Positions 7,945 through 39,960 of a stretch of 64,000 nucleotides of DNA are shown one piece after another. Location: NCBI GenBank assembly GCA_020849475.1, contig JADLGE010000025.1, forward strand, positions 1 to 64,000, given 5' to 3'. The DNA comes from Gammaproteobacteria bacterium (GTDB lineage: Bacteria > Pseudomonadota > Gammaproteobacteria > Ga0077536). A model generated the notes under the pieces. The model worked only from the letters and a program-made list of their open reading frames with translations. It ran no database searches and was not told where the DNA came from. A program made the position numbers and the translations under genes. Numbering within the stretch: position 1 is the first letter of the stretch; every line of letters starts with the position of its first letter.

Positions 7945-8046
7945 GCGATCGATTCCTCAAGGCCTGCGGCGCGCGGCGCCGGTACAGTGGAGAGTAGCTG
8001 CTTCATTCTGACTCGAAGATGGCATGAATCATGCCAAGAGCGATTT

Positions 8047-24027: not shown

Positions 24028-24028
24028 C

Positions 24029-26223: not shown

Positions 26224-26811
26224 ATGAGCGATTACTCGGTACACGCCACCGCCATCGTCGATGAGGGCGCCGAGATCGGCGCCGGCACACGCATCTGGCA
26301 CTGGGTGCATGTCAGCGCCGGCGCGCGCATCGGCCGCGCCTGTTCCCTCGGGCAGAACGTCTACGTCGGCAACCGTGTCAGCATCGGTGACAACTGCAAG
26401 ATTCAGAACAACGTCTCGGTCTACGACAACGTCACGCTCGAAGAAGGCGTGTTCTGCGGCCCGAGCATGGTCTTCACCAACGTCTACAATCCGCGCGCCG
26501 AGATCTCGCGCAAGGACGAATACCGCGACACCCTGGTCAAGCGCGGGGCAACGCTCGGCGCCAACTGCACCATCGTGTGCGGCGTGACGGTCGGCGCCTA
26601 TGCCTTCATTGCCGCCGGCGCGGTGGTGCGCGAAGACGTGCCGGACTTTGCGCTGATAGGCGGCGTGCCGGGACGCCTGCTCGGCTGGATGAGCCGCTTC
26701 GGCGAACGCCTCGACCTGCCAAAGAGCGGCGACGGCGAATGCACCTGCCCGCACAGCGGCGAGCGTTACACACTCAGCGGCGGGCGGGTGCGAGTGGAAG
26801 GCGCGGCTTGA
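26224..26811 (+). CDS. N-acetyltransferase, WbpD/WlbB-like (left-handed beta helix)
   Basis: A 195-residue hexapeptide-repeat transferase. Repeats run from about residue 5 to 150 (for example [30 protein letters not shown]), with [13 protein letters not shown] bearing the family's acceptor-site asparagine. The length and motif order match WbpD/WlbB, which use acetyl-CoA to acetylate the 3-amino group of UDP-GlcNAc3NA. The short cysteine/histidine C-terminus ([12 protein letters not shown]) resembles a small metal-binding knuckle found in some members. It starts 8 bases after the WbpB-like stop. Confidence 0.87.
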
Positions 26812-26869
26812 GGCCGTGCGTCGATAGTCAGCGCGGTCGCGGCCAACAGCCGTGGCCGTTGGAGCAATG

Positions 26870-27979
26870 ATGGAATTCATCGATCTCAAAACCCAGTACC
26901 AGCAACTCAAGGGCGCCATCGACCAGCGCATCCAGCAGGTGCTCGATCACGGCCGCTACATCATGGGCCCCGAAATCGTCGAGCTCGAACAGCGGCTGGC
27001 CGAGTACGTGGGCGTCGAACATTGCATCGGCGTGTCCAATGGCAGCGAAGCGCTGCAGATTGCGATGATGGCGCTGGACATTGGCCGTGACGATGAAGTC
27101 ATCACCTCGCCGTTCACCTTCATCGCCACCGCCGAGATGATTGCGTTGCTTGGCGCCAAGCCGGTGTTCGTCGACATCGACCCGCGCACCTACAACCTCG
27201 ATCCGGCGCAGATCGACGCGGCCATCACGCCGCGCACGCGCGCCATCATGCCGGTCAGCCTGTATGGTCAGTGCGCGGCGATGGACGAAATCAACGCCAT
27301 CGCCGCCGCCCACAAGCTGGCCGTCATCGAAGACGCCGCGCAAAGTTTCGGCGCGACCTACAAGGGCCGCCGCTCGTGTGGCCTGTCGACCATCGGCAGC
27401 ACCAGTTTCTTTCCGTCCAAGCCGCTCGGTTGCTATGGCGACGGTGGTGCGCTGTTCACACGGGATGCGGCGCTTGCCAAGCGCATGCGCGAGATTCGCG
27501 TGCATGGCCAGGACCGCCGCTACCATCACCCGCTGCTGGGTGTGAACGGCCGCCTCGACACCCTGCAGGCCGCCATCCTGCTTGCCAAGTTCGATACCTT
27601 CCCCGACGAAGTCGCTGCCCGCGAGCGTTTGGGCGCGGCCTATTCGGCGCGCTTCAAGGCCGCCGGTTCGCACTTCACCACGCCCTACATCGAAGCGCAC
27701 AACACCTGCGTTTACGCGCAGTACACGGTGCAGGTCGAAGAGCGCGACGCGGTCATCGAGCGACTCGCCGCCGCCGGCATCCCGACCGCCGTGCACTACC
27801 CGGTGCCGCTGCATCTGCAGCCGGTGTTCGCCAACATGCAGCTCGGCGCGCGCGGCAGCTTTCCGGTCTCGGAGCGCACCGCCGAGCGGGTCATGAGCCT
27901 GCCCATGCATCCGTTCCTGAGCGACGCCGATCTCGAGCACATCGTGGCGGCAGTGGTGGCCGCGGTGGCCCATGGCTGA
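26870..27979 (+). CDS. DegT/DnrJ/EryC1 aminotransferase, WbpE/WlbC-like
   Basis: A 369-residue PLP-dependent sugar aminotransferase. SNGSEALQIAMMAL binds the cofactor phosphate, EDAAQSFGA holds the PLP ring aspartate, and Lys184 in SFFPSKPLGCYGDGGA forms the Schiff base. It is highly like WbpE, which transfers an amino group from glutamate to the 3-keto sugar made by the WbpB-like enzyme. The start at 26870 is preferred over an ATG one codon earlier because a GGAG lies 5 bases upstream. With its neighbours it completes the route to UDP-GlcNAc(3NAc)A; a WbpI-type epimerase is not seen in the window. Confidence 0.9.
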   Translation: MEFIDLKTQYQQLKGAIDQRIQQVLDHGRYIMGPEIVELEQRLAEYVGVEHCIGVSNGSEALQIAMMALDIGRDDEVITSPFTFIATAEMIALLGAKPVFVDIDPRTYNLDPAQIDAAITPRTRAIMPVSLYGQCAAMDEINAIAAAHKLAVIEDAAQSFGATYKGRRSCGLSTIGSTSFFPSKPLGCYGDGGALFTRDAALAKRMREIRVHGQDRRYHHPLLGVNGRLDTLQAAILLAKFDTFPDEVAARERLGAAYSARFKAAGSHFTTPYIEAHNTCVYAQYTVQVEERDAVIERLAAAGIPTAVHYPVPLHLQPVFANMQLGARGSFPVSERTAERVMSLPMHPFLSDADLEHIVAAVVAAVAHG

Positions 27980-28033: not shown

Positions 28034-28840
28034 ATGCATTTACCGAAAGTTTTCGTGCTGCTTCCCGCCTTCAATGAGGAAGCGGCGCTACCCATACTCA
28101 TTCCGAAATTCGCGGCGGTGCTGACGCGCCTCGGCAATCCATTCCTGATCATCGTCGGCGATGACGGCAGCAGCGACGGCACCGGCGCGGTGGCGGCTGC
28201 ACTCGCCAGGGATTATCCGTTGGAAGTGCTGACCCACCGTGTCAATCGCGGTCTGGGTGAAACGGCACGGGATCTGTTCGAACGCGCGGCGGAGCTCGCC
28301 GCGCCCACCGACATCATCGTGCGCATGGATTGCGATGACACCCACGACCCGACCGTGGTGGAAGCGATGCTGGCACGCCTGGCGCGTGACGATGTCGACG
28401 TCGTCATCGGTTCGCGCTTTCAGCCGGGCGGCGGCCAGAGCGGTGTCAACGCCTACCGCGCGGCCATCAGTCGCGCCGCCAACCTGTTCATGAAAGTGTT
28501 CTTTCCGATGCGCGGCGTGAATGACTATTCGTCGGGCTTTCGCGCCTATCGTGCGCGCATCATCCAGCGTGCGATCGCGGTGTTCGGCAACAACTTCATC
28601 CAGCTCAAGGGCCTCGGTTTCACCGGCACGCTCGAAAAGCTCGTCAAGCTGTCGCTGCTCGGCGCGAAATTCGACGAGGTGGCGATGATGCTGCGCTACG
28701 ATCAGAAGCAGAGCAGCAGCAAGATGGTCAGCAGCGTCACGACCTTGGGTTACCTCGTCATGGCGGTGCTCTACCATTGGCCCTGGGGTGGCTGGCGACA
28801 GCAGAGTCGACGCAATCTCTGGCGCCAGCACCCCGGCTGA
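28034..28840 (+). CDS. Family 2 glycosyltransferase
   Basis: A 268-residue GT-A fold transferase: VFVLLPAFNEEAALP at the N-terminus, DDGSSDGT, and the RMDCDDTHDP metal-binding region with DxD-like acidic residues. The type resembles dolichol-phosphate mannose synthase-like enzymes that load a sugar onto a lipid phosphate. The C-terminal part lacks the two long membrane helices seen in ArnC/GtrB. The ATG at 28034 begins the conserved core; a longer frame to 28004 is possible. It starts the tightly packed run of genes to 38409. Confidence 0.85.
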   Translation: MHLPKVFVLLPAFNEEAALPILIPKFAAVLTRLGNPFLIIVGDDGSSDGTGAVAAALARDYPLEVLTHRVNRGLGETARDLFERAAELAAPTDIIVRMDCDDTHDPTVVEAMLARLARDDVDVVIGSRFQPGGGQSGVNAYRAAISRAANLFMKVFFPMRGVNDYSSGFRAYRARIIQRAIAVFGNNFIQLKGLGFTGTLEKLVKLSLLGAKFDEVAMMLRYDQKQSSSKMVSSVTTLGYLVMAVLYHWPWGGWRQQSRRNLWRQHPG

Positions 28841-28850
28841 GCGCGATGCC

Positions 28851-30743
28851 ATGTGCGGCATAGCGGGATTGTTCGGAGCATCGCCCGGCGCGGACAGGCA
28901 AGCGCTGGTCACGCGCATGGCGGCGCGTATCCGCCATCGTGGCCCCGACGGCGAAGGCGTGTTCGTCGACGCGCGCGCGGCGCTCGGCCACGTCCGGCTG
29001 TCCATCATCGACGCCGAAGGCGGTGCGCAGCCCATGCACAGCCGCGACCAGCGCTACGTGCTGACGTTCAACGGCGAGATCTACAACTACCTCGAACTGC
29101 GCACCGAACTCGAAGCCGACGGCGTCGCGTTCGAAACCCATTCCGATACCGAAGTGCTGCTGGCGATGCTGGTGCGTCACGGCAGCGATGCGCTGCCGCG
29201 TCTGAACGGCATGTTCTCGTTTGCATTCTACGACCGCCGCGATGGCGGCTGGCTGCTGGCGCGCGATCCTTTCGGCATCAAGCCGCTGTATGTCGCCGAA
29301 CTCGCCGACGGCCTGCTGTTCGCATCGGAGATCAAGGCGCTGTGGGAGCATCCGGCCATGCAGGCGCGGCTGTCGTGGCCGGCGCTGCAGGAATACCTGA
29401 CGTTTCAGTATTGCCTGCTCGGACGCACATTGTTCGCCGGAGTGCGCCAGCTCATGCCCGGCACCTTCATGCGCGGTCACGGGCAACACATCGAACAGCA
29501 GGCGGCCTACTGGCGCTTGAACTACGAAATCGACGAGACCCGTGCGCCCGACAGCTATGTCGAAGAGCTGGGCGCGCTGCTCGACGACAGCGCGCGGCTG
29601 CAAATTCGCAGCGACGTGCCGCTCGGCGCCTACGTGTCGGGCGGCATCGATTCGAGTGTGGTGGCCTGTCTCGCCGCGCGCCAGATGGGCCGCGCGCTGC
29701 CCTTGTTCCATGGCCGCTTCGACGCCGGCCAGGCCTATGACGAATCCCATTGGGCGCGCCAGGTGGCGGACGCCATCGGCGTGCCCTTGTGCGAAGTCAC
29801 GCCGAGCGCGCAGCAGTTCGTTGATGAGATGCCGCGCCTGATCTACATGCTCGACGAACCTTTGGCCGGCCCCGGTGTATTTCCGCAGGCGGTGGTCAGC
29901 CGCCTCGCGGCCGGCGCGGTGAAAGTGGTGCTGGGCGGGCAGGGCGGCGATGAGCTGTTCGGTGGCTACACGCGTTATCTCATCGGTTATCTCGAGCAAG
30001 CGTTGAAGGGCGCGATGTACGGCACCCAGGAAGAAGGGCGCCATGTCGTGACCCTGGCCACGGTGATTGAAAACCTGCCGATGCTGCGCGGCTATGAGCC
30101 GTTGTTGCAGCACTTCTGGCGCGATGGCCTGTTCGCGCCCATGGACTCGCGTTACTTCCGTCTCATCGACCGCGGCAGCGACATGGATCAGCTTTTGAGC
30201 GACGATGCCCGTGCGCTGATCGACAGCGAACAGGTGTTCGCCGAATTCCAGGCGGTGTTCAACGATCCGCAGACCCATTCCTACATCAACAAGATGACGC
30301 ACTTCGACCAGGCGACGTTCCTGCCGGCGCTGCTGCAGGTCGAGGATCGCGTCAGCATGGCGGTGTCGCTCGAAGCACGCGTGCCCTTGCTCGATACACG
30401 CATCGCCGAATTGGTGGCGAGCATGCCGCCCGCCATCAAGTTCGCGCACGGCACCAGCAAGCATGTGTTGAAGCGCGCCGCGCGCAAATTCCTGCCGACC
30501 AGCATTGTCGAGCGCCAGGACAAGATGGGCTTTCCGGTGCCGCTCAACGAATGGTTGAAGGGCGGACCGGTGCGCGACTTCGTGCGCGATGTGCTGCTCG
30601 GCACCGCCAGTCGTGAACGCGGACTGTTCCGTCCCGCCGCGCTCGAGAAACTGGTCGATCACGAGCGGCCTTTCGGGCGCCAGCTGTGGGGCGCGCTGTG
30701 TCTGGAACTGTGGCATCAACGGTTCGTGGACGGCCGCCCATGA
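28851..30743 (+). CDS. AsnB-type glutamine-dependent amidotransferase 1
   Basis: A 630-residue asparagine-synthase family protein. Met1 precedes Cys2 (MCGIAGLF), the glutaminase nucleophile; the start is fixed by this. The class II glutaminase domain covers about residues 1-210 with RHRGPDGEG and FNGEIYNY, and the synthetase domain carries the PP-loop SGGIDSS at 263-269. In sugar-polymer gene clusters, related proteins (for example WbpS in Pseudomonas) amidate uronic acid carboxyl groups rather than making asparagine; that role is inferred here from context. The next gene's ATG overlaps its stop by 4 bases. A second paralog lies at 45209. Confidence 0.9.
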   Translation: MCGIAGLFGASPGADRQALVTRMAARIRHRGPDGEGVFVDARAALGHVRLSIIDAEGGAQPMHSRDQRYVLTFNGEIYNYLELRTELEADGVAFETHSDTEVLLAMLVRHGSDALPRLNGMFSFAFYDRRDGGWLLARDPFGIKPLYVAELADGLLFASEIKALWEHPAMQARLSWPALQEYLTFQYCLLGRTLFAGVRQLMPGTFMRGHGQHIEQQAAYWRLNYEIDETRAPDSYVEELGALLDDSARLQIRSDVPLGAYVSGGIDSSVVACLAARQMGRALPLFHGRFDAGQAYDESHWARQVADAIGVPLCEVTPSAQQFVDEMPRLIYMLDEPLAGPGVFPQAVVSRLAAGAVKVVLGGQGGDELFGGYTRYLIGYLEQALKGAMYGTQEEGRHVVTLATVIENLPMLRGYEPLLQHFWRDGLFAPMDSRYFRLIDRGSDMDQLLSDDARALIDSEQVFAEFQAVFNDPQTHSYINKMTHFDQATFLPALLQVEDRVSMAVSLEARVPLLDTRIAELVASMPPAIKFAHGTSKHVLKRAARKFLPTSIVERQDKMGFPVPLNEWLKGGPVRDFVRDVLLGTASRERGLFRPAALEKLVDHERPFGRQLWGALCLELWHQRFVDGRP

Positions 30744-32656
30744 GCGCGACCGGCATGCCGGCGGCGCGCGCGGAATTTTTGACACGGCGCCTGCCTTGGC
30801 TTGCCCTGGCGCTGGTGGTGATGGCCTGCATCGCCAACCGCTGTTACTGGTACGCGCCGGAAACCGCCTACCGCGGTTATTCGCCGGTGGGCTGGGTCTA
30901 TGTTCACGAACACCCGGCCGAGTTCAGTAAGAACTGGCAGAATGGCACCGAGAACTACGATCGTTCGGCGGTGATGTGGGTCTACCTCCTGGCCTATCGA
31001 CTGGCGGGCATCGAGGCCGAGCATCTGGTGTACTTCATCATCGCGCTCGAAATCGTCGGTCTCGCGTGGAGCTATGTACGCATTACGCAAACCCTGATCG
31101 ATGATGCGCCGGCGTCGCTGGCGGTGGTGGTGGCGATGCTGGCGGTAGCATCGTCGATACGCAATGTGAGCCTCAGCCGTTTCGGCACGCCGTTCTTCGA
31201 AGGGCAGTTCTATACCTTCGCCGAAATCGCACGCAACATGGCGGTGCTGGCCTGCCTGCGCGGACGCTGGCTGAAGAGCGCGGGCTGGCTGTCGCTGGCG
31301 ACCGTCAATCACGTCATTCTTGGCGCCATCGGCAGTGCGTTCGTGGCGGCCGTTGCGCTCGTGCGCTGGCGTGGCGGTGAACGCCGCGACATCCTGCGCG
31401 GTGCGGCGCTGCTGCTGCTCGTCGGCGGCGCATGGCTGGCGCTGTTCTACCAGCCGGGCGCTCTCTATGCCGACCCGGTGCCCGATGCCGTGTGGCACAC
31501 CTGGGCGCGCTTTTTCAATTACCACTGGTTTCCGTGGCACAACGGTGTATTCACCGCTGAGCACCAGCGCTGGCTGTTGCCGTTCCTGAGCATGTTGGCC
31601 GCCGCCGCGCTGTGCTGGCTGCATCCCGCCACGCGCCCACCACGCTATGGGCGCGAGATGATGGCAGGCATGGCGATGCTCGCGGCGATGACGGTGTTTG
31701 CCGTGATCATTTCCGAGCAGCGTGTGAGCACCACTTTGATCAAGCTGGCCCTGCATCGCGGCGCCGACATGATGCTGACCTTCGCGCTGGTCTACGCGGT
31801 GGCGCTGTGGTGGCGGGCGCTGGTGACGCTGCCGGCATGGAGAGCGTCGGCCGCCGCCTACCTCGTGTTGGCGGCGAGTTGGAGCGCCGGTGTGGCGAGT
31901 GCCGCACTGGCGGTGCATGGCGCGCTGGCGCCGCCGTCAGCGCGCCGAGATCGATATCGGTGGTGGCTGGTCGCGACGCTGCCCGTGCTGGTGGCGCTCG
32001 CCTACGTGGTGAGCGGCCACGGCAAGCCGTGGTTGTCGGAGGGCTACAGCGGTCTCGCGCCGCTGCTCGGTCGTCCGCTGCTGGCCGTGCCGCTGCTGTT
32101 GGCCGTGCTGGTGATGCTCGCCGCGCGCGCCGGTTCAGCGTGGCGCGCGCCGCTGCTGACGCTGTGCGTGGCCCTTGCCTGCACGGGCTGGATTCAGCGC
32201 GATGTGCCGCACTTCGCCGTCGAGGGGCGCGCCTATCTCGATGTGCAACGCTGGGCGCGCGCCAATACGCCCACCGGTGCGCTGTTCTTCGCCGATCCGA
32301 CCATCTTCTACGGCTGGAGCGATTATTCGCGGCGTGCAAGCTTCGGCAACCTGCGCGACTGGACGCATCGCTGGGCCTACAACTCGCGTCGTGACTGGTG
32401 GCAGCAAGGCGTCGAACGCCTCGCATTGCTGGGGTTGAAGGTCGATCCCTACCTCAAGCGCACGGATGGCGCACAGCGTCTGACGCGTGATGTACGCACG
32501 CGCTTCTACCGCGCCGATGACGCCTGGCGTCAGCGTATGGCCAGCGACTGGGGCGTCGATTATTTCGTGTTGCGACGTAAGCCCGCCCATCGATCGCAAT
32601 TGCCGGTGGTCTATCAGAACCAGGGCTTCGTGGTGCTGGCGGCGCGTGCGCCGTGA
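30740..32656 (+). CDS. Large polytopic membrane protein, GT-C-like, function unknown
   Basis: A 638-residue protein with many hydrophobic helices (first at about residues 18-36). A C-terminal extracytoplasmic-looking domain follows from about residue 500 (DVQRWARANTPTGALFFADP onward). This layout, with an acidic-residue loop after the first helix (WVYVHEHPAEFSKNWQNG), resembles GT-C transferases or polymerase-like membrane proteins of polysaccharide clusters, but I cannot name the family with confidence. It could be a lipid-linked-sugar transferase, or fill the missing Wzy-type role. It is translationally coupled on both sides (ATGA with the amidotransferase, GTGA with the deacetylase-like gene). 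Confidence 0.72.
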   Translation: MSATGMPAARAEFLTRRLPWLALALVVMACIANRCYWYAPETAYRGYSPVGWVYVHEHPAEFSKNWQNGTENYDRSAVMWVYLLAYRLAGIEAEHLVYFIIALEIVGLAWSYVRITQTLIDDAPASLAVVVAMLAVASSIRNVSLSRFGTPFFEGQFYTFAEIARNMAVLACLRGRWLKSAGWLSLATVNHVILGAIGSAFVAAVALVRWRGGERRDILRGAALLLLVGGAWLALFYQPGALYADPVPDAVWHTWARFFNYHWFPWHNGVFTAEHQRWLLPFLSMLAAAALCWLHPATRPPRYGREMMAGMAMLAAMTVFAVIISEQRVSTTLIKLALHRGADMMLTFALVYAVALWWRALVTLPAWRASAAAYLVLAASWSAGVASAALAVHGALAPPSARRDRYRWWLVATLPVLVALAYVVSGHGKPWLSEGYSGLAPLLGRPLLAVPLLLAVLVMLAARAGSAWRAPLLTLCVALACTGWIQRDVPHFAVEGRAYLDVQRWARANTPTGALFFADPTIFYGWSDYSRRASFGNLRDWTHRWAYNSRRDWWQQGVERLALLGLKVDPYLKRTDGAQRLTRDVRTRFYRADDAWRQRMASDWGVDYFVLRRKPAHRSQLPVVYQNQGFVVLAARAP

Positions 32657-33954
32657 GTGAACTCACCGCGCGCCGCGCGTGGGCGGTCGAGGCCGCGCAG
32701 CGTTATTGGCCGCGTGCCGCGCCCTTGATTGCGCAACTGCCGATGCCGGCCGTGTCTGTCGCCGACGCTGGCGCGGCGCCGCGCATGACGGAAGTCCTGT
32801 TGCCCGCGTGGGCCGAGGATGTCGGCGTGGCGCGCGCGCTGCTGGTGCCGGCGGCAGCGCTCAGGCGCATTGATGGCCAGGACACCTGGCAAAACGTCGA
32901 TTGGCTGTCGGCGATGTCCTGGTATCTCGATGCCAGCGCCGAGCGCGCCCACGAACTGCAACGCGGCCCCATCCATTCCTACGCGCTGCGCCTCGACGGA
33001 TGGGATACACGCCTGTGGTCCCATGCCTGGGTCAATCGCATGGCACTGTTCCTGCGCCGTTGGCTGGCGCGCGAGCAGGGCGTCGACGAGCATCAACTGT
33101 GCGGACCGCTGCCGACGCCGCGGCTGGTGCTGACCCATGACGTCGATGCCTTGCGCAAAAGCGTGTCCATCCGTCTCAAGCAGTCGATGTTCCAGGCCTT
33201 CAATGCCCTGCGTGCCTTGCGCGATGGCGACTTCGCGGCGGCCGCGCGCCGCGCGCGTAAATTTGCACAGGTGCTGCTGTCGAACGAATCCTACTGGTGC
33301 TTCGAGCGCATCTTCGAACTCGAAGCAGCGGCGGGCGCGCGGTCGATGTTTTTCTTTCATGCCCGTGATGCCGGCCCGCGCGCCGCGCGTTTGATGCTGG
33401 TCGACCCGGCCTATCACGGCGCCAGCGAGGAGCTCGCGCGGGCAGTGACGCGCGTGCAGCGCCACGGCGCCGCCATCGGTCTGCACCCATCCTTCGCGGC
33501 GTGGCGCGACGCGGCGCTGCTGGCGCGTGAAAGACACAATCTCGAAACGCTGTGCGGGCAGCCGGTGACGGCGGTGCGTCAGCATTGGCTGCGCTTTTCG
33601 TGGCAACATACCTGGGCCGCCCAGGCACGCGCCGGTCTGCGTCATGACTACACGCTCGCCTTCAATGATCGGCCGGGTTTTCGCAGCGGAGCGGCGCTCA
33701 CCTACCCGGCATTCGGCATGGCCGACGAGCCGCCCTTCCAGGTCACACCGACGGTCATGATGGATTCGCAGTTTTATGATTATGCCGAGCTGTCCGACAG
33801 CGCGCGGCTGGCGGCGATGGCGCACTGGCTGCGCGAAATCGAGGATACCCACGGCGAGGCGGCGGTGATCTGGCATCAGCAGGTATTCAATCGTGACTAC
33901 GCCTGGGACGCGGGTTACGCGGCGCTGCTCGATTTGCGGCGCGCCAGCGCATGA
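32653..33954 (+). CDS. Polysaccharide deacetylase-like protein
   Basis: A 433-residue protein whose second half has NodB-like features. LVLTHDVDALRKS at 158-170 matches the THDxD metal-binding motif; SMFFFHARD is a following strand, GLHPSF the HxxS-type motif, and QHWLRFSW the catalytic-arginine region. The N-terminal ~150 residues are a helical domain of unknown role. Such proteins commonly sit in O-antigen or capsule loci, where they may deacetylate a sugar or a lipid-linked intermediate. No signal peptide is visible, suggesting a cytoplasmic site of action. GTG start overlapping the previous stop. Confidence 0.78.
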   Translation: MSELTARRAWAVEAAQRYWPRAAPLIAQLPMPAVSVADAGAAPRMTEVLLPAWAEDVGVARALLVPAAALRRIDGQDTWQNVDWLSAMSWYLDASAERAHELQRGPIHSYALRLDGWDTRLWSHAWVNRMALFLRRWLAREQGVDEHQLCGPLPTPRLVLTHDVDALRKSVSIRLKQSMFQAFNALRALRDGDFAAAARRARKFAQVLLSNESYWCFERIFELEAAAGARSMFFFHARDAGPRAARLMLVDPAYHGASEELARAVTRVQRHGAAIGLHPSFAAWRDAALLARERHNLETLCGQPVTAVRQHWLRFSWQHTWAAQARAGLRHDYTLAFNDRPGFRSGAALTYPAFGMADEPPFQVTPTVMMDSQFYDYAELSDSARLAAMAHWLREIEDTHGEAAVIWHQQVFNRDYAWDAGYAALLDLRRASA

Positions 33955-34733
33955 GTTTCAAAGCCTGGGCGCATCGACTGCCACAGCCTCTCGCGCGGCG
34001 CCTGTTCGGTGATCGCGCGCAGCACGGACTGGTGGTCAAGGACGACGACCCGCAATGGCGTGAATGGTTGTCGACCTACACGGCGTTCTACGAAAGCAAC
34101 CAGCGCAGTGGCATCGGCCTCATGGTCAACGATGCCGGCTACCAGGTGATGCGCAAAATACCGCTGGCCGGCCGCCGTGTGCTCGAGATCGGTCCCGGCG
34201 ACATTCGTCATCATGTCCATTGGCAGGGCCGGCCGGCGAGTTACACCCTGTTCGATGTCAGTTCAGCGATGCTGGCCAAGGGCGTGCACAATCTCGCCGC
34301 GCTCGGCATCGAGGCGCGTGCGGTGCTGTGGGAGCGCGCCGCCAGCGAGTGGCCGTTCGCGGACGGGGAGTTCGATGTCATCGTGTCGTTCTATGCCTTC
34401 GAGCACATGTATCCCTTCGCGCCGGTGCTGGCCAATCTACGCCGGCTGCTCGCGCCGCGCGGGGTGCTGGCCGGCGCCATTCCCTGCGAGGGCGGGCTGG
34501 CCTGGGGCGCAGGGCGCATGCTGACCAGTCGTCGCTGGTTTCTGCGCCATACCCACATCGACCCGGACAAGATCATCTGCTGGGAACACCCGAATTTTGC
34601 CGACGCCTTGCTCAACGATTTGAGCGCAAGCTTCGGGCCGGCAGCGCTCGCCTGGTGGCCGTGGCGCGTGCCGTCGCTCGATCTCAATCTCATCGTCTCT
34701 TTCGTATTCGAGCGTGATGAATCCCTACCTTGA
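33951..34733 (+). CDS. Class I SAM-dependent methyltransferase 1
   Basis: A 260-residue methyltransferase: motif I VLEIGPGDIRHH at about residues 78-88, the acidic strand TLFDVSS, and a motif IV-like FDVIVSFYAFEHMY. It follows the pattern of sugar or lipid methyltransferases in polysaccharide loci, but the acceptor is not readable. The start overlaps the deacetylase-like stop by 4 bases. The stop lies inside the start of the next gene (17-base overlap). Confidence 0.84.
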   Translation: MSFKAWAHRLPQPLARRLFGDRAQHGLVVKDDDPQWREWLSTYTAFYESNQRSGIGLMVNDAGYQVMRKIPLAGRRVLEIGPGDIRHHVHWQGRPASYTLFDVSSAMLAKGVHNLAALGIEARAVLWERAASEWPFADGEFDVIVSFYAFEHMYPFAPVLANLRRLLAPRGVLAGAIPCEGGLAWGAGRMLTSRRWFLRHTHIDPDKIICWEHPNFADALLNDLSASFGPAALAWWPWRVPSLDLNLIVSFVFERDESLP

Positions 34734-36258
34734 CGCCGTGCATGGCGCCTTGCCGCGCCTGCTTGCGAGTTTCGACGGCGATGCGCTGCGCGCCACGCGC
34801 GGCTTGGGCGATCGTACGGCGTGGGCGTGGAAGACCATCGATTTTTTCAACGCCACGCCGCAGGGCGCGGTGCATGGCCTCGCGCGACTGGTGGCGGCCG
34901 ACCTGTTGCCACAGGGCATGTGCGCGGAGCCGGTGATGGCGCGCATCGAGGAGGCGGTCGACGCGCTCGCGCGCATCACGCGCGGCGACGGCAGCCTCGA
35001 AGAGGCCTTCCCCTATGAAGGCTCGTTCTGCGTCACGGCGCTTGTCGCCTACGACGTGCTGGTGGCGCGCGAGCAGCTCGGCGAGCGCTGGTCGGCGCGC
35101 GCCCAGGCGCGCTGCCTCGAACGCGTCGAACCCTTGATAGGCTATCTGCTGCGCGCCGATGAGACCCATGGCGCGATAAGCAATCACATCCTGACCGCGG
35201 TGGCGGCTTTACTCGCCTGGCAGGACGTCATGCCGGGCGCAGCGGAGGCGCGCGCCGAGGCGCTCATGGCGCGCGTCAAGGCCTGGCAATCGGCGGAAGG
35301 CTGGTGGCGCGAATACGATGGCGCCGATGCCGGCTATCAAAGTCTCGCGACCTGTTACCTCGCCGATATCCATCGGCGCCGCCCGCACTGGCAGCTCGCC
35401 GACCGCGTCGCGCGTTCGGTGGATTTCCTGAGCCATTGCGCCCATCGCGACGGCTCTTTCGGCGGCCTTTACGGCAGTCGCAACACGCGCTTCCTGATGC
35501 CTGCCGGTTTTGAATATCTCGCCGACGAGATGCCGATGGCGGCGGCGCTCGCCGCGTTCGCACGCACCTCGATTGCCACGCAGAGCTGCGTGACGCTGGC
35601 CAGTATCGACGCCGGCAATCTCGCGCCGTGGTTCAATGGCTATGCGTGGGCGGCACAGCTTTGCGCTACGCGACAAGCGCCGCGCGATGTGCCCTTGCTG
35701 CCCTGTCAGCAGCCACGGTTGCGCGCGTGGTTTGCCGACGCGGGGCTGTTGTTCGACGGTGACGATGAAGCCTACACCGTGGTGTCGACGCACAAGGGTG
35801 GCGTGGTGCTGCGCACTTCGACGGCCAGCGCCGCGCGCATCGATGCTGGCGTGGTGATGCGCGACGGACACGGCGCGCTGTCGACCACGCAGCATTATCG
35901 CCGTGACAACACGCTGCGCATCGAGGCCGACGAGATTGTCGTCGACGCGCCGCTCACACCCTTGCGCCACACCCCGTTCAAACCGGTCGACATGCTCGCG
36001 CTGCGCCTTTTGAATCTCAGCGTGATGCGTTGGCGGCCGCTGCGCGAATGGGTCAAGCGCCGCCTCGCCGCGCTGCTGATGGGCGCGCCCAAGGCGCTCG
36101 CGATGCGCAATCGCCGCGTCATCCGTCTGCGTCCGACGTTCGCCATCGAGGATGAAGTGAGTGGTGCGAGCGGCGCCAGCAAGGTCGAAGTCACGCGGCC
36201 GTTCTCGGTCATCCACATGGCCAGTCAAGGCTATTGGCAACGCGGGGATGACGCGTGA
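34717..36258 (+). CDS. Alpha/alpha-toroid-like protein of unknown function
   Basis: A 513-residue soluble protein that I cannot name. The first 350 residues are helical with a pattern reminiscent of alpha/alpha toroids such as heparinase-type or prenyltransferase-like proteins (for example AWKTIDFFN, GYQSLATCYLADI, HRDGSFGGLYGSRNTRF). The remainder is beta-rich, with GGVVLRTSTAS and HYRRDNTLRIEADEIVV, as in the C-terminal sheet of lyase or hydrolase toroid enzymes. No signal peptide is seen, which argues against a classical periplasmic lyase. An in-frame GTG directly precedes the ATG used. It overlaps both neighbouring genes and therefore belongs to the same translational unit. Confidence 0.7.
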   Translation: MNPYLDAVHGALPRLLASFDGDALRATRGLGDRTAWAWKTIDFFNATPQGAVHGLARLVAADLLPQGMCAEPVMARIEEAVDALARITRGDGSLEEAFPYEGSFCVTALVAYDVLVAREQLGERWSARAQARCLERVEPLIGYLLRADETHGAISNHILTAVAALLAWQDVMPGAAEARAEALMARVKAWQSAEGWWREYDGADAGYQSLATCYLADIHRRRPHWQLADRVARSVDFLSHCAHRDGSFGGLYGSRNTRFLMPAGFEYLADEMPMAAALAAFARTSIATQSCVTLASIDAGNLAPWFNGYAWAAQLCATRQAPRDVPLLPCQQPRLRAWFADAGLLFDGDDEAYTVVSTHKGGVVLRTSTASAARIDAGVVMRDGHGALSTTQHYRRDNTLRIEADEIVVDAPLTPLRHTPFKPVDMLALRLLNLSVMRWRPLREWVKRRLAALLMGAPKALAMRNRRVIRLRPTFAIEDEVSGASGASKVEVTRPFSVIHMASQGYWQRGDDA

Positions 36259-37406
36259 TCCCACGCATTCGCGCGGAACTCGGCGTGGCGGAGATGGCGG
36301 CGGCGCTGCGCTGGCCGCGCCATGACGACGTGGCGCGCTACGAGCAGGCCTTCGCCGCCAGCATGGGACAGCGTCACGCCATCGCTTTCGGTTACGGACG
36401 CAGCGCGCTCAGCATCGCCTTGCAGTGCCTGCTCGGCAGCGGACGGGAAGTGATCTGTCCGGCCTACACCTGCGTGGTGGTGGCCCATGCCATCGTCACC
36501 AGCGGCAATGTGCCGGTGTTCATCGACAGCCATGCCGATGACTTCAACATGGACCTCGACGCCGCCGCAGCGGCCATCACATCGCGCACCGGCGCCATCA
36601 TCGCCACCAGTCTTTTCGGTCACCCGGTCAATCTCGAGCACACCGACGCGCTGCGCGCTGCCCATCCCGACGTACTCATGATCCAGGACTGCGCGCACAG
36701 CTTCGATGCCCGCTGGCAAGGGCGCGCTGTGCAGGGCGCCGGCGACTTCGCGATCTTCGGGCTCAATATCAGCAAGCTCATGACCTCGATATTCGGCGGC
36801 ATGCTCACCACCGATGACGATGCCGTGGCGCAGCGGCTGCGCGCGGCGCGTGATCGCAAGTGCACGCCGGCGACGCTGGCCAAGGGCCTGCGCCGCGCCG
36901 CTTACCTGGCCGCGGTGGTGCCGGCCTTCATGGCCTGGCCCTACAGCGTGGTCGGGCGTTTGAAGGACTGGGGAGTGCTCGATCATTTCGTGCGCTACTA
37001 CCGGCCGGACGTGATCGACATGCCGGCCGATTACCTCGAAGCCATGAGCCCGATCGAGGCGCGCGTCGGTCGCGCGCAACTCGCGCGGCACGCGGCCATC
37101 CTGACCGCGCGGCGTCGCCGTGCCGACGCCTGGCGCAAGCGACTCGCGCATGAAGCGGGGCTGGTGCGCCTGCCGGCGGACGAGGCGGGCGCGAGCTGGT
37201 CGCACTTCAGTTGCGTGGTCGACGACCGCGAAGCCTGGGTGGCGCGCTGGCGCGCGCGTGGCATCGAACTCGGCACCTTGATCGAATACAGCATTCCGGA
37301 GCTGCCGGCTTACGGCGCGTGGCAGCCGGCGGCTTTTCCGCACGCCGCACACTACGCTCGGCATACGGTCAATTTTCCGTTGACGAGCGATCTGCGCGAT
37401 GGCTGA
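36255..37406 (+). CDS. DegT/DnrJ/EryC1 family aminotransferase-like protein 2
   Basis: A 383-residue PLP-fold type I protein with FGYGRSALSIALQ (phosphate site), QDCAHSFDA (aspartate for the PLP nitrogen) and Lys174 in GLNISKLMTSIFGGML, so the Schiff-base lysine is retained. Its motifs are well diverged from the WbpE-like enzyme at 26870, and the canonical SNGSEAL is replaced by GYGRSAL. It probably aminates a nucleotide sugar or acts on a related substrate; the product is unknown. GTG start overlapping the upstream stop; the 3' end overlaps the next start. Confidence 0.83.
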   Translation: MIPRIRAELGVAEMAAALRWPRHDDVARYEQAFAASMGQRHAIAFGYGRSALSIALQCLLGSGREVICPAYTCVVVAHAIVTSGNVPVFIDSHADDFNMDLDAAAAAITSRTGAIIATSLFGHPVNLEHTDALRAAHPDVLMIQDCAHSFDARWQGRAVQGAGDFAIFGLNISKLMTSIFGGMLTTDDDAVAQRLRAARDRKCTPATLAKGLRRAAYLAAVVPAFMAWPYSVVGRLKDWGVLDHFVRYYRPDVIDMPADYLEAMSPIEARVGRAQLARHAAILTARRRRADAWRKRLAHEAGLVRLPADEAGASWSHFSCVVDDREAWVARWRARGIELGTLIEYSIPELPAYGAWQPAAFPHAAHYARHTVNFPLTSDLRDG

Positions 37407-38409
37407 CATGACGGGACCCGGGAGGCCGCATTTGCCGATGATTTTGCGCTGGAGTGGTCGCGTTCTGAGCTTTGCCATGGTGGCGGCAATCGCTGTGTGG
37501 ATGCTGCGCGAGCTCGACGTGCAGGATGCCATCGGTCGATTGCATCGCGGCCAGCTCTACGCGGTCGCCCTGGTGCAACCGCTCGTGGTAGTGGTCTATT
37601 TCATCCTTGGCTGGCGCTTCTCCCACCTCGCCGCGCCGCCCACGGTGCCCATCATGGCCGCGACCCGCGCCATGGCACTTTCGGCGGGCCTTAACTATTT
37701 GTTGCCGGCACGCACCTCGGAGTTGGTCAAAGCGCTTTATTTGCGGCGTGCAGGCGACCGGGGTTCGGGCGCGTTGATGGCGGCGATCGTGGTCGAGCGC
37801 CTGATGGATCTATGCATCGTCGCGACGCTCACGACCCTGGTGGTCGCAGCGCGGATGGCGTCTTCTGCTTGGGCCGCGCTGGGTGCCGCGCTGGGCGCTG
37901 CATGCTGTCTGTGGCTTTCTCCACATATCGCGCGCATCACACTCCGCGCCAGCGCCGGCTGGTCGTGGACTCGCCTGCGGGCCTTGCTCGGCGATTTTGC
38001 CGAACGTATACACGTCTTGTCGCGCGTACATTTCGACGCGCGCATCTGGGCGATGGGCGTGACGGCGTGGGCGCTGTCCTGGATGGCTGTGCATGTAGCG
38101 ATGACCGCCACGCTCAGGACCGACGTGTCGTGGAGTGCGTCCGGCCTGGTATTCGTGGCGTCAACGCTGGGCTTCGGCATTCCGTTGTTGCCCGGCGGCG
38201 TTGGTACGGTCGAAGTGGCGGCGGTCGCCGCGCAGCGTCTGCTCGGTATCGAACTTGAACCAGCCGTAGTGGTGGCGGCGGTGATGCGTCTGCAACAGGT
38301 GATTGTGCCGCTGCTGTGGTCGATGTTGATCTTGCTGCAAGAAGGCGACCTGTGGCGTCGCATCCGCGGTGCTGAAGAGAATCCCGTGGCCGAGGTGTCT
38401 AAGTTGTGA
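37399..38409 (+). CDS. UPF0104/LPG-synthase-type transmembrane protein 1
   Basis: A 336-residue protein with about eight hydrophobic helices, in the family of the lysylphosphatidylglycerol synthase membrane domain (flippase-like, AglD-type). Family features are RASELVKALYL-like (here ARTSELVKALYLRR), IVVERLMDL and LPGGVGTVEVAAVAA. Relatives act in lipid flipping or lipid-linked sugar modification. It ends a run of eight tightly packed genes. A paralog at 60499 pairs with another GT2. A Met 13 codons in is an alternative start. Confidence 0.84.
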   Translation: MADMTGPGRPHLPMILRWSGRVLSFAMVAAIAVWMLRELDVQDAIGRLHRGQLYAVALVQPLVVVVYFILGWRFSHLAAPPTVPIMAATRAMALSAGLNYLLPARTSELVKALYLRRAGDRGSGALMAAIVVERLMDLCIVATLTTLVVAARMASSAWAALGAALGAACCLWLSPHIARITLRASAGWSWTRLRALLGDFAERIHVLSRVHFDARIWAMGVTAWALSWMAVHVAMTATLRTDVSWSASGLVFVASTLGFGIPLLPGGVGTVEVAAVAAQRLLGIELEPAVVVAAVMRLQQVIVPLLWSMLILLQEGDLWRRIRGAEENPVAEVSKL

Positions 38410-38465: not shown

Positions 38466-39101
38466 TTAGTGCGGGTTTGAATAGGCCGAGTCGTGCTTCC
38501 ACAGGTAGTGGGCCCTGCCATCGACAATGATGGTGCCGACGATTTGCGCGTTGATTTTTTTGTGAGCGGCGTTGCTTGCCGCGTTCTCGCAATCGACCGG
38601 CCCGTAGAATTCCCTGATGCCGCGTGTCTGCATCTCGGCACACAGACGCCCGTACAACTCCATGCCGAGCCCATGTTTTCTGTATTCCGGAGCGACCACC
38701 CAGGTGATCCAGCGCTGTCGCGGAATGGCAATCTGATGCTTGTCGGCGAAGATATTCTTGAACACGAGTTTCAGCTGCCGAGGATGCAGCACCAGCATTT
38801 TCAATCCGTACCACATCAGGGCCAGCGGATGCTCTTTGACGAGGAAGCGTGTCGTTGCAGAAGAATCGGCCGTGCCTATGATGTATCCGGCCAGCCTGTC
38901 GTTTGTCTTGTCGACGGCCACCCACGCGATGACCGCCGGGCAGAGTGTGATTGTTTTAAAAAACAATTCCCAAAAACTGACGTCCATCTTTGAGAAGAGA
39001 CCAAACTCTTGAGACGTCATGCGCGCCTGCGAGGCATCCCGCGCATGAAGGTCCGCCATTTTTTCAAATCTGAAGGTCCGGGTGGCCGTTAAGTCGTGCA
39101 T
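38466..39101 (-). CDS. GNAT-family N-acetyltransferase
   Basis: A 211-residue acetyltransferase. VVAPEYRKHGLGMELYGRL is the acetyl-CoA-binding motif A (R/Q-x-x-G-x-G/A), preceded by the strand WITWVVAPEY and followed by IREFYGPVDCENAASNAAHKKI, where the family carries the asparagine helix. The acceptor is unknown. Base composition is visibly lower in GC than the flanking genes, including T-rich and A-rich stretches (38549-38556, 38957-38970), and codon choice differs, so it may be a recent arrival. It is the last gene of a minus-strand run with the methyltransferase (13 bases upstream) and a glycosyltransferase; internal Met codons at 39059 and 39023 are alternative starts. Confidence 0.78.
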   Translation of the reverse strand: MHDLTATRTFRFEKMADLHARDASQARMTSQEFGLFSKMDVSFWELFFKTITLCPAVIAWVAVDKTNDRLAGYIIGTADSSATTRFLVKEHPLALMWYGLKMLVLHPRQLKLVFKNIFADKHQIAIPRQRWITWVVAPEYRKHGLGMELYGRLCAEMQTRGIREFYGPVDCENAASNAAHKKINAQIVGTIIVDGRAHYLWKHDSAYSNPH

Positions 39102-39114
39102 CGTCGGTCGGCGC

Positions 39115-39960
39115 TCAGGCCTCGCGCGCGGCGTCTTTCTTTTCCAGCGACGCGTAAATCATGAACGGCAGCAGACTGTCGAGCAGGCGGTGCAGGGCGC
39201 GTGGTATGCGCACCCCGAGTGCACGCGCCGGAAAGAAGTGGAAGTAGACCTCGCGTACATGGAAATGAGTTTCCAGCAGCGCGACGAACTGTTGACGGGT
39301 GTAGGACTTGCCGATGGGATTGTCGGCGCCATCGTAGAGCCGCACGATTTCATCGACGTCGGCATTGTCGACCATCGCCTCACGTCCGCGACCCTTGAGC
39401 CCGACCCCGAGCTTGCGCAGCCAGCGACCGGCGAAGCTGAATAGCGGCCAGCCGCGCAGCAGCACGTTGCGGTAGTAGACCGACACGCTGGCGGTGCCGC
39501 CCTGGCGCAGCACGCGCGCAATTTCGCGCACCGTGGCCGGCGTATCGGGGGTGTGATGAATGACGCCGAGGCAATTGACGTGGCTGAACCAGCCATCGTC
39601 GAAGGGCAGCGCTTCGGCATTGCCGACCTTGAACTGCGCCTGGCAAGCGTAGAGTTCGCAGCGGCGCGTCGCGAGTTCGATGGCCTTGTCGGTGAGATCG
39701 CACGCCCACAACTCGGTGCAGCCACGCTGGCCGAGTTCGACCGTCCAGAAGCCGGGACCACAGCCGAGATCCAGCACCCGTTCGCGGCTCCTGCCCTGCG
39801 GGAAGATGCGCTCGTCCATGGCGCCCGCGAAGCAGTCATCGATATACACCTGGCGATGCTCGGCGAAGAATTCCGCGCTGCCGGGCGCATGGCGCGATTC
39901 GCCGCTCCATAAGGGATTGCTCTGCCAGAAGCTGCGAACATCATCGACGCTGGGATTCAT
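39115..39960 (-). CDS. Class I SAM-dependent methyltransferase 2
   Basis: A 281-residue protein with motif I RVLDLGCGPGFWTVEL (about residues 61-76), motif II-like ELWACDLTDKAI, VGNAEALPFDDGWF and CLGVIHHTPDTPATVREIARVL. It is a UbiE/Methyltransf_11-type enzyme; in this setting it probably methylates a sugar or glycolipid. The ATG at 39960 is chosen for its AAGGA ribosome-binding site 5 bases upstream; the frame extends to 40077 but that part overlaps the next gene. It is followed by the GNAT gene and preceded 40 bases by the glycosyltransferase. Confidence 0.86.
   Translation of the reverse strand: MNPSVDDVRSFWQSNPLWSGESRHAPGSAEFFAEHRQVYIDDCFAGAMDERIFPQGRSRERVLDLGCGPGFWTVELGQRGCTELWACDLTDKAIELATRRCELYACQAQFKVGNAEALPFDDGWFSHVNCLGVIHHTPDTPATVREIARVLRQGGTASVSVYYRNVLLRGWPLFSFAGRWLRKLGVGLKGRGREAMVDNADVDEIVRLYDGADNPIGKSYTRQQFVALLETHFHVREVYFHFFPARALGVRIPRALHRLLDSLLPFMIYASLEKKDAAREA

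Follow-up and report, generated by a model that had tools for sequence, protein, structure and literature searches.

A recurrent bacterial gene module with a remote heparinase II/III homologue and a predicted role in making amidated aminouronic acids

The window analysed here is a stretch of 64,000 nucleotides from a gammaproteobacterial contig (JADLGE010000025.1). At 28034-38409 it carries eight genes, all on the + strand. Six of the seven junctions overlap (in order, a 10 bp gap, then overlaps of 4, 4, 4, 17, 4 and 8 bp), which confirms the translationally coupled block proposed in a preliminary description of this DNA. The genes encode a GT2 glycosyltransferase (28034-28840), an AsnB-type amidotransferase (28851-30743), a GT-C-like membrane protein (30740-32656), the THDVD protein, a VimE-like carbohydrate deacetylase (32653-33954), a SAM-dependent methyltransferase (33951-34733; PF13649, E 4.7e-12), a toroid protein without a signal peptide (34717-36258), a diverged DegT aminotransferase (36255-37406; PF01041, E 1.3e-53) and a UPF0104/LPG_synthase_TM membrane protein (37399-38409; PF03706, E 1.9e-26). 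Just beyond the block, on the - strand, sit a GNAT acyltransferase (38466-39101), which is assigned to the module by position and family match only, and a second methyltransferase (MT39; 39115-39960, start inferred), which belongs to it by homology. Several gene starts are later in-frame ATGs inside the longest open reading frames, and the toroid gene has an alternative GTG start at 34714. Because the high GC content yields many long open reading frames (101 of at least 90 amino acids overlap 20-46 kb, on both strands), length alone is no proof of a gene; it is homologues in other genomes that support the reality of the block genes.

The toroid protein has relatives in a further 25 loci, spread over several phyla (26 loci with the window). 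Across the 26, a DegT gene directly follows the toroid gene in 23, and a THDVD gene is present in 23, AsnB in 22, the SAM-dependent methyltransferase in 17 (plus L035 by tblastn), GT-C in 10 and UPF0104 in 8, five of them with GT-C. Three records were dropped before counting (L039, the same record as L022; L041, as L021; L020, as L045), and contigs whose ends lie close to the toroid gene (L032, L043, L044, L056, L021) were retained, so that where a gene is absent there, the count is a lower bound. The clustering of open reading frames overlooked genes found by tblastn (both methyltransferases in L035, GT2 in L036 and a partial GT-C in L049); additions by hand to the presence counts were limited to MT39 of L035 and the GNAT list. 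Wherever DegT directly follows (23 loci), the two genes overlap, and in 12 cases the overlap is exactly 4 bp, as measured from longest-frame starts, which overstate overlap. Relatives of MT39 that are 48-58% identical occur in 9 other loci of the 26, lying between GT2 and AsnB in L021, L035, L037, L038 and L042, and its HMM has matches in 8 of 10 wider loci (>100 bits in 6).

Distances between toroid proteins correlate with those of DegT (r 0.71), the methyltransferase (0.71), AsnB (0.65) and THDVD (0.64), and those of AsnB with GT2 (r 0.98), each with P 0.002 in 500 permutations; for comparison, toroid against WecB gives r 0.38 (P 0.056, 13 loci). Record titles with the module include Planctomycetota, Desulfococcaceae, several proteobacterial groups, Synergistaceae, Selenomonadales, Bdellovibrionales, Opitutia and others. 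A single-sequence search with the toroid protein (E<=1e-8) retrieved only the window itself, both among 36 genomes of the order and among 369 of the class, and a profile search (E<=1e-10) had hits in 14 of 398 genomes of the phylum. In 8 of 10 more distant loci, too, AsnB and GT2 are encoded close to the toroid gene; the set of toroid relative, AsnB and GT2 with no window-type THDVD or DegT gene is seen in 8 of the 10 further loci, and, in 9 of 13 genomes, VimE-like genes stand in a fetched stretch that has no toroid gene. We conclude that the block is a real, widely shared module, probably transferred horizontally. The preliminary description had taken the fixed order and coupling to imply one process and had suggested looking for the same gene set elsewhere. 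The recurrence, largely in the same order, and the correlated distances support one process well; the counter-case that it named, homologous clusters in which the genes occur independently, holds in part, for the sub-sets just described.

Upstream of the block, on the + strand, are genes for nucleotide-sugar enzymes. The protein at 19895-21184 is of the TviB/WbpA UDP-GlcNAc 6-dehydrogenase type (NCBIfam TviB 530 bits, below the cut-off of 592; the NDP-sugar dehydrogenase family is above its cut-off) and likely supplies UDP-GlcNAcA. Directly before the block come a WbpB/WlbA-type 3-dehydrogenase (25151-26215; matching PDB 3q2i along almost its full length, E 2.6e-167), a WbpD/WlbB-type 3-N-acetyltransferase (26224-26811; PDB 3mqg, E 7.2e-94) and a WbpE-type C3 aminotransferase (26852-27979; PDB WbpE 3nyu, E 1.8e-144). 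We take 3q2i, titled just 'dehydrogenase', to be WlbA/WbpB, and 3mqg, titled 'Lipopolysaccharides biosynthesis acetyltransferase', to be WlbB. At the level of sequence matching, the assignment of these proteins as WbpB, WbpD and WbpE relatives is firm. In more than half of the 26 loci, Wbp genes are absent from the fetched stretch.

Within the block, the AsnB-type protein matches PF00733 (304 bits) and GATase_7, has both the MCG start and the SGGxDS motif, and exceeds the cut-off of the general asparagine synthase family TIGR01536 (482 bits against 267). Its score against TIGR03108, the XrtA-type amidotransferase, is 437 bits, below the cut-off of 816.9, and we regard it as a probable uronamide former of the WbpS/eps_aminotran_1 kind. 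Pfam yields no above-cut-off family for the THDVD, toroid and GT-C-like proteins, and PDB sequence searches returned nothing significant for the first two. The THDVD protein has an NCBIfam match to VimE (E 9.8e-22, 77.1 bits) under the cut-off of 440 and is not a VimE equivalog; residues H162, D163, D165, H278, H311, D371 and H408 are invariant in all 22 aligned proteins (L054 excluded).

VimE-like and WbpS-like genes are shared with the pathway in Porphyromonas gingivalis, which, according to PMC7468200, unites WbpS, VimE and the Wbp enzymes. The module could in principle serve C-terminal protein sorting by making a linking sugar, as T9SS/Wbp-Vim or exosortase systems do, and the genome does have an XrtA-type FemAB gene (400 bits). 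However, this gene is on a different contig (C111), none of the eight block proteins matches a sorting family, and the module is present in a genome (G568) with no FemAB hit. We consider a role in sorting highly improbable.

The DegT protein has its best PDB matches in perosamine synthetase and ArnB, confined to residues 26-205, and against the NCBIfam model for ArnB (PRK11658) it reaches 107.8 of 631 bits, missing the cut-off. The position of the Schiff-base lysine is retained in 23 of 23 DegT neighbours of the toroid gene. Since its N-terminal half resembles C4-aminotransferases, the enzyme is probably of the C4 type. The conserved core has no C4 dehydrogenase, which leaves the 4-keto substrate of such an enzyme without an assigned source. 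Acylation genes vary among the loci. In the other 25, a GNAT gene is present in 6, a formyltransferase in 13 and both together in none (exclusion statistic 0.0052 without the window and 0.0026 with it), and one of the two formyltransferase types has ArnA as its best NCBIfam hit. The window GNAT may replace the formyltransferase of other loci. BLAST finds no match between it and the GNATs of other loci, and its match to the GNAT HMM is no evidence, as it was in the training set.

The toroid protein has no Pfam or NCBIfam family at E<=0.01. Its AF2 model (pLDDT 88.3, pTM 0.90) has a helical toroid followed by beta strands, the two-domain fold (alpha/alpha toroid and beta-sandwich) of the heparinase II/III superfamily. 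Lyases are the best Foldseek matches (500-600 columns, E 8e-6 to 9e-4, TMq about 0.4-0.5), and dermatan sulfate epimerase, GH127 and cellobiose 2-epimerase are in the list as well. Aligned with hhalign to a profile of 15 lyases, the toroid profile scored 96.2% (E 2.3e-9, 306 columns) by default and 97.3% (E 7e-11, 440 columns) with -glob 0, the controls being for the default setting. These gave at most 0.2% for five column shuffles and a reversal, at most 0.8% for six unrelated families and 1.6% for five squalene-hopene cyclases; GlcNAc 2-epimerase, as one sequence only, gave 0.6%. The strength of the match derives from the 15-member profile, since six draws of five lyases gave 82, 42, 39, 38, 22 and 1.6%, and single lyases 8.5% at best. 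At E<=1, none of the 26 toroid proteins matches the heparinase Pfam families PF16889 and PF07940. N156, H157 and Y207 are invariant in all 26, and hhalign places them on the Asn-His and ExS..Y stretches of the lyases, which we take to be the catalytic positions of heparinase-type enzymes. By profile comparison and fold model, we conclude that this protein is remotely homologous to heparinase II/III.

A terpene-cyclase-like toroid was also considered. PF00432, the prenyltransferase toroid, is Pfam's weak best match, reaching E<=1 in 8 of the 26 toroid proteins with 0.00036 as the lowest E, and VIA-align, whose matches cover just the toroid domain, puts terpene cyclases and sugar epimerases at the top of its ranking (drimenyl diphosphate synthase at Z 19.6); PDB prenyltransferases match at E 0.12 only. 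This candidate was set aside, as the heparinase II/III match spans both domains and squalene-hopene cyclases scored 1.6% in hhalign. In a crude hydropathy scan, 15 of the 26 toroid proteins, the window's not among them, have one or two hydrophobic stretches, so membrane contact of the family is possible.

What a member of this superfamily without a signal peptide does in the operon can be read in different ways. The structural matches are led by lyases, and HepP of P. aeruginosa, for which its authors found no typical export signal, was published as a heparinase (PMC5732420). The toroid protein might be a cytosolic lyase of degradative function that removes faulty or recycled uronate glycans and only rides in the operon. 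Its place next to DegT, its company with AsnB and GT2 in distant loci, and its distances that correlate with those of biosynthetic genes argue against this, and we regard such a role as improbable. As the predicted activity, we consider a C5 epimerase about twice as likely as a lyase.

The remaining block proteins suggest a lipid carrier. All four PDB matches of GT2 at E<=1e-6 (residues 3-181) are DPMS or ArnC, polyprenyl-phosphate sugar synthases, and it is probably such an enzyme; its best NCBIfam match, ArnC, is 51.6 bits, far under the cut-off of 529. The GT-C-like protein has no NCBIfam match. Its AF2 model is of medium confidence (pLDDT 74.8), and Foldseek ranks ArnT first (5f15, with undecaprenyl phosphate; E 1.1e-5, TMq 0.46), with OST/PglB in the next rows, which suggests a probable ArnT-like transferase; among 10 relatives, the first loop has no invariant acidic residue. 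The UPF0104 protein scores 42.6 bits against TIGR00374, just below 43.2, and is a possible flippase. The preliminary description had proposed fold prediction for this GT-C-like protein and the toroid protein, and assembly and modification of a lipid-linked sugar as a possible process; the latter is supported at the level of fold and family.

The same genes could be read as ordinary assembly genes for an O-antigen or EPS repeat, with AsnB, the deacetylase, the toroid protein, DegT and the acyltransferase all acting on a UDP-sugar by a Wbp/Vim-type route and the numerous glycosyltransferases encoded nearby building it into the repeat. The Wbp genes directly upstream fit this, as do, at 49232, a WecA-like initiator whose 75 bits fall short of the cut-off, a GT4 gene and additional GT-like genes, read from sequence, in the window. 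Moreover, 7 of the 26 loci lack GT-C and have another membrane protein (c11), which profile comparison does not relate to GT-C (0.3%); in the marine isolate Neptunicella marina (L045), for example, the c11 gene replaces GT-C. Five of the seven have a Wzx-like gene, a label that for one cluster is our own, from sequence, with the flippase-like genes of L055 and L056 outside that cluster. Against it, the solved matches of GT2 are all polyprenyl-phosphate synthases and its distances closely track those of AsnB, which makes GT2 part of the sugar-making unit. We think this reading possible, at about half the likelihood of the one that follows.

The reading to which we give an even chance is that the module builds an N-acylated di- or triamino-hexuronic acid, amidated at C6, and installs it by an Arn-like, undecaprenyl-phosphate-linked route, with the toroid protein doing C5 chemistry, probably epimerisation. 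The C5 step is our inference, as are the carrier lipid and the acceptor. The TviB/WbpA-like enzyme and the WbpB, WbpE and WbpD relatives would yield UDP-GlcNAc3NAcA, and GT2, judging from its DPMS/ArnC homology, would load the sugar onto undecaprenyl phosphate. Going by enzyme family, at the cytosolic face AsnB would convert the carboxylate to an amide, which would also keep a 4-keto sugar formed later from losing its carboxyl group; the VimE/ArnD-like deacetylase would free an amine; DegT would add one, probably at C4; the GNAT here, and a formyltransferase in other loci, would acylate; and the methyltransferases would methylate. The signal-less toroid protein, with its Asn-His...Tyr site, would take the C5 proton of the uronate or uronamide, most likely for C5 epimerisation. 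UPF0104 or another flippase would then flip the lipid-linked sugar, and the ArnT-like GT-C would move it onto a glycan of the cell surface, where it might form an LPS/O-chain cap.

A related possibility is that the enzymes make the chain-terminating, non-reducing residue of an O-chain, as in Bordetella. The Bordetella cap is a triamino uronamide with formyl and other acyl groups, and Achromobacter denitrificans (L047), of the same family as Bordetella, carries the module. According to PMC3849452, genes of Bordetella O-antigen loci are predicted to modify the terminal sugar, which correlates with serotype; passages of PMC1794550 and PMC2279256 yielded nothing on a uronamide cap. We consider a dedicated cap doubtful.

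The undecaprenyl-phosphate-linked reading would assign a testable role to proteins that match no Pfam or NCBIfam family, and tie them to AsnB and polyprenyl-phosphate-type glycosyltransferases. If it is true, a uronate-lyase fold has been recruited for sugar synthesis, and the gene set would let genome readers predict amidated, N-acylated aminouronic acids. A bolder version, which we put forward tentatively, is a phylum-crossing, unrecognised pathway to an undecaprenyl-phosphate-linked N-acylated triamino-hexuronamide. In it, a cytosolic heparinase-fold enzyme would act via a C5 carbanion, epimerising or otherwise, on an AsnB-amidated monosaccharide, the amide acidifying C5-H and blocking decarboxylation of a C4 ketone.

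The preliminary description could match the block to no described pathway. This stands for the heparinase-like protein and for the gene combination, on which we found no paper in the open full text of PMC, and fails for the pieces, which match Wbp/Vim and Arn logic, here combined within one operon. With the Wbp/Vim system (WbpA/B/E/D, WbpS, VimE and VimA), the locus shares WbpB/D/E upstream, the AsnB-type amidotransferase and the VimE-like deacetylase. It differs in that the locus has no VimA/FemAB (the genome's single TIGR03019 hit being on C111), the VimE and eps_aminotran_1 cut-offs are missed, and the module has in addition the heparinase-like protein, another DegT, methyltransferases, a GNAT or formyltransferase, GT2 and GT-C. 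The AsnB protein resembles the WbpS/WbqG amidotransferases in domain architecture and in its tie to Wbp genes, yet it reaches about half of the TIGR03108 cut-off and has another set of partners. The Arn pathway, by which lipid A is modified with L-Ara4N, likewise has a DegT aminotransferase, a formyl- or acyltransferase, a GT2 acting on undecaprenyl phosphate, a deacetylase, a flippase candidate and an ArnT-like GT-C. In contrast to Arn, the uronate of the module is apparently retained and amidated rather than decarboxylated, the ArnA UDP-glucuronate oxidase/decarboxylase is absent among the eight block proteins, the deacetylase is of the VimE type, the heparinase-like protein is extra, and the ArnB and ArnC cut-offs are missed. 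The likeness to Bordetella wbm terminal-sugar modification lies in the predicted product type. With the uronate lyases of the heparinase II/III superfamily and dermatan sulfate epimerase (PL8, PL12, PL17, PL33 and DSE), the toroid protein shares the two-domain fold, profile similarity over both domains and the Asn-His and Tyr positions; unlike these enzymes, it is shorter, lacks a signal peptide and a Pfam match, is encoded in a biosynthetic operon and has its own C-terminal motif, HMASQGYWQ.

The block comprises eight plus-strand genes (28034–38409) of a 5.4-Mb draft genome, encoding in order a GT2 glycosyltransferase, an AsnB-like amidotransferase, a GT-C-like membrane protein, the THDVD protein, a methyltransferase, the toroid protein, a DegT-type enzyme and a UPF0104 protein. 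The tight coupling claimed in the preliminary description was borne out: six of seven junctions overlap (4, 4, 4, 17, 4 and 8 bp) and the first is a 10-bp gap. The Pfam families assigned are GT2, AsnB (glutaminase and Asn_synthase), methyltransferase, DegT and LPG_synthase_TM, and the scan placed no family over cut-off on the GT-C-like, THDVD and toroid proteins. Against the NCBIfam model VimE, named UDP-2,3-diacetamido-2,3-dideoxyglucuronate deacetylase, the THDVD protein scores 77 bits (cut-off 440).

WbpB-, WbpD- and WbpE-type genes adjoin the block upstream (PDB E-values 2.6e-167, 7.2e-94 and 1.8e-144), with a TviB/WbpA-like dehydrogenase gene farther upstream. Together we take these to be the UDP-GlcNAc3NAcA gene set. 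Such a set is described for P. gingivalis in PMC7468200. The next genes 3' of the block are on the opposite strand and encode a GNAT and a second methyltransferase; the latter has relatives with 48–58% identity in nine other loci. The GNAT found no BLAST match among GNATs of the other loci and is counted with the module by position only.

Several other genes in the window and its genome deserve mention. A second AsnB-type amidotransferase (44714–47155) lies about 7 kb downstream amid glycosyltransferase-like genes. Between the UDP-glucose dehydrogenase and WbpB genes, 22666–25057 holds a DltB-like MBOAT gene and a partner that has no NCBIfam match and is presumably AlgJ-like; relatives of both occur in another locus (L028, 14053–16516), 4 kb from a VimE-like gene. 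At 4687–10457, a minus-strand Transglutaminase-like + DUF2126 amidoligase (1085 aa) is grouped with a circularly permuted ATP-grasp (7366–9492) and an Alpha-E protein (9315–10457), a set that resembles described amidoligase clusters. On another contig of this genome (C111, 52037–53017), an XrtA/PEP-CTERM FemAB gene scores 400 bits, over the curated cut-off, which makes it likely that the genome has a separate EPS system of exosortase type.

A search of genome contigs with a four-sequence toroid alignment returned 25 loci (26 with the window), and the gene set recurs in them. They include loci of Achromobacter denitrificans, Legionella londiniensis, Neptunicella marina, Candidatus Thiomargarita, and metagenome-assembled genomes (MAGs) titled Planctomycetota, Desulfococcaceae, Synergistaceae, Selenomonadales, Opitutia, Bdellovibrionales, Elusimicrobia, Alphaproteobacteria and a Rickettsia endosymbiont; as the word MAG stands in 21 of the 25 titles, individual assignments could be mistaken. 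The Rickettsia endosymbiont of Bryobia graminum MAG carries a diverged copy with GT-C, GT2, AsnB, THDVD, toroid and DegT genes. Across the 26 loci, THDVD and DegT are each present in 23, AsnB in 22, GT2 in 19 (tblastn adds L036), the methyltransferase in 17 (tblastn adds L035), a WecB-type epimerase in 13, GT-C in ten and UPF0104 in eight. The most frequent order is GT2, AsnB, THDVD, (methyltransferase), toroid, DegT. Where present, DegT always lies on the same strand immediately 3' of the toroid gene. With the starts of the longest ORFs, the two genes overlap at all 23 junctions, and at 12 of them the overlap is exactly 4 bp. We conclude that the block is real, conserved and largely interpretable.

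The set and order proposed as fixed largely recur among the 26 loci; sub-sets also exist. Of 398 genomes from the phylum, 14 have a toroid profile match: four of the window's type and ten others (L093–L102). In eight of these ten, the toroid gene has AsnB and GT2 close by (of the remaining two, one is a contig of 4 kb). All three stand side by side in five, four of which have the order GT2-toroid-AsnB, and no window-type THDVD or DegT (E ≤ 1e-8) was found in any fetched stretch. Conversely, THDVD matches occur in 13 of 398 genomes: the four with E ≤ 1.8e-54 have a toroid gene within the fetched stretch, whereas the nine weaker ones lack it there. Of those nine, G494 carries a toroid relative on a different contig, and in G183 and G696 a FemAB-like match lies no more than 8 kb from THDVD. 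Based on this distribution, the toroid protein is most tightly linked to AsnB and GT2, and THDVD, DegT and an acyltransferase define the window's type.

Protein distances indicate that the block genes evolve in concert. For pairs drawn from toroid, DegT, THDVD, AsnB, GT2 and methyltransferase, Mantel correlations range from 0.48 to 0.71 (P 0.002 to 0.016), and reach 0.98 for AsnB–GT2; a common organismal history would by itself also inflate them. WecB, an internal contrast of lower power (8 to 13 loci only), gives 0.27 to 0.48 with any core gene (P 0.056 to 0.080). Beside the same toroid and DegT genes, two quite different AsnB/GT2 types appear to be exchanged as pairs.

Other components appear to substitute for one another. 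Outside the window, no locus has both an N-formyltransferase (13/25 loci) and a GNAT of one loose family (6/25), an outcome with a chance of 0.0052 if placement were random. GT-C never co-occurs with the c11 membrane family (7/26; chance 0.017), both values ignoring relatedness and contig ends. The c11 proteins (~530 aa; one member scanned, no Pfam or NCBIfam match) are encoded at L033 11014–12621, L035 14692–16389, L037 19384–20952, L038 18892–20499, L045 3950–5512, L046 11083–12663 and L054 12837–14384. All five members of a Wzx-like cluster sit with c11, and five of eight UPF0104 genes with GT-C. In L038, a hexapeptide-acyltransferase-like and an AMP-ligase-like gene (12798–13397 and 13409–14860, read from sequence) follow DegT in the spot of the GNAT or formyltransferase elsewhere, and possibly represent another acyl donor.

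The AF2 model of the toroid protein (34717–36258; pLDDT 88.3, pTM 0.90) is a helical toroid followed by beta strands. Its Foldseek matches include chondroitin AC lyase, GAG lyases, PL33, hyaluronate lyase, a heparinase, PL17 and, as the 43rd entry, human dermatan sulfate epimerase 1 (E 8e-6 to 9e-4); GH127 and cellobiose 2-epimerase also appear. VIA-align, whose alignments cover the toroid domain only, lists terpene cyclases, sugar 2-epimerases and unsaturated glucuronyl hydrolases (Z 17–20), so the fold alone is indecisive. When the toroid profile is compared with a profile of 15 heparinase-like ORFs, which come from 10 of 75 genomes, it scores 97.3% (E 7e-11, 440 columns; default settings 96.2%, E 2.3e-9, 306 columns). 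Under the default settings, shuffled, reversed and unrelated alignments score ≤0.8%, and five squalene-hopene cyclases 1.6%. Single lyases reach 8.5% at best, and six randomly drawn sets of five lyases between 1.6 and 82%, so the kinship is remote. N156-H157 and Y207 correspond in the alignment to the Asn-His and Tyr of the lyases and do not vary among the 26 members; nor do E149, H151, E199, Y200, D204 and R255. In the C-terminal HMASQGYWQ motif, H500 is nearly invariant.

Heparinase superfamily enzymes remove C5 protons of uronates, and for this reason the toroid enzyme is predicted to act at C5 of a uronate. We prefer an epimerase to a lyase because of the missing signal peptide and the linkage to biosynthetic genes. 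A crude hydropathy scan found no hydrophobic stretch in the window protein and one or two in 15 of 26 family members; the protein is thus inferred to be cytosolic, possibly with membrane contact. According to PMC5732420, HepP of P. aeruginosa is heparinase-like, and its authors found no typical export signal.

At the level of folds and families, the remaining enzymes suggest a lipid-linked sugar. All four solved GT2 matches at E ≤ 1e-6 are dolichyl-phosphate-mannose synthase or ArnC. For the GT-C-like protein (30740; model pLDDT 74.8), Foldseek ranks ArnT with undecaprenyl phosphate (Und-P) first, and OST and PglB are among the matches that follow. DegT residues 26–205 first match perosamine synthetase and ArnB, which we take to be C4-aminotransferases, and the active-site Lys is kept in 23/23 toroid-linked copies. 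ArnA is the best NCBIfam match, under cut-off, for one of two types of formyltransferase, and seven His/Asp of metal-site type are kept in 22/22 aligned THDVD proteins.

We propose that Arn-like reactions would act on a Wbp-made diamino-uronate, with AsnB amidating it; on chemical grounds, amidation ahead of C4 oxidation would block the decarboxylation exploited by ArnA. The main gap is a C4 dehydrogenase, absent from the conserved core. The preliminary description matched the block to no described pathway. This holds only in part. No block protein reached any testable equivalog cut-off of Arn or Vim, and we therefore file the block under neither; its parts match Arn logic and Wbp/Vim genes. 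PMC3849452 predicts terminal-sugar modification for Bordetella O-antigen locus genes, and PMC7468200 notes the Wbp/Vim pathway beside exosortase and rhombosortase genes. With Arn the block shares an aminotransferase, acyltransferase, Und-P transferase, deacetylase, flippase candidate and GT-C, and with Wbp/Vim its locus has in common WbpB/D/E and WbpS- and VimE-like genes. We thus read it as a functional blend of the two.
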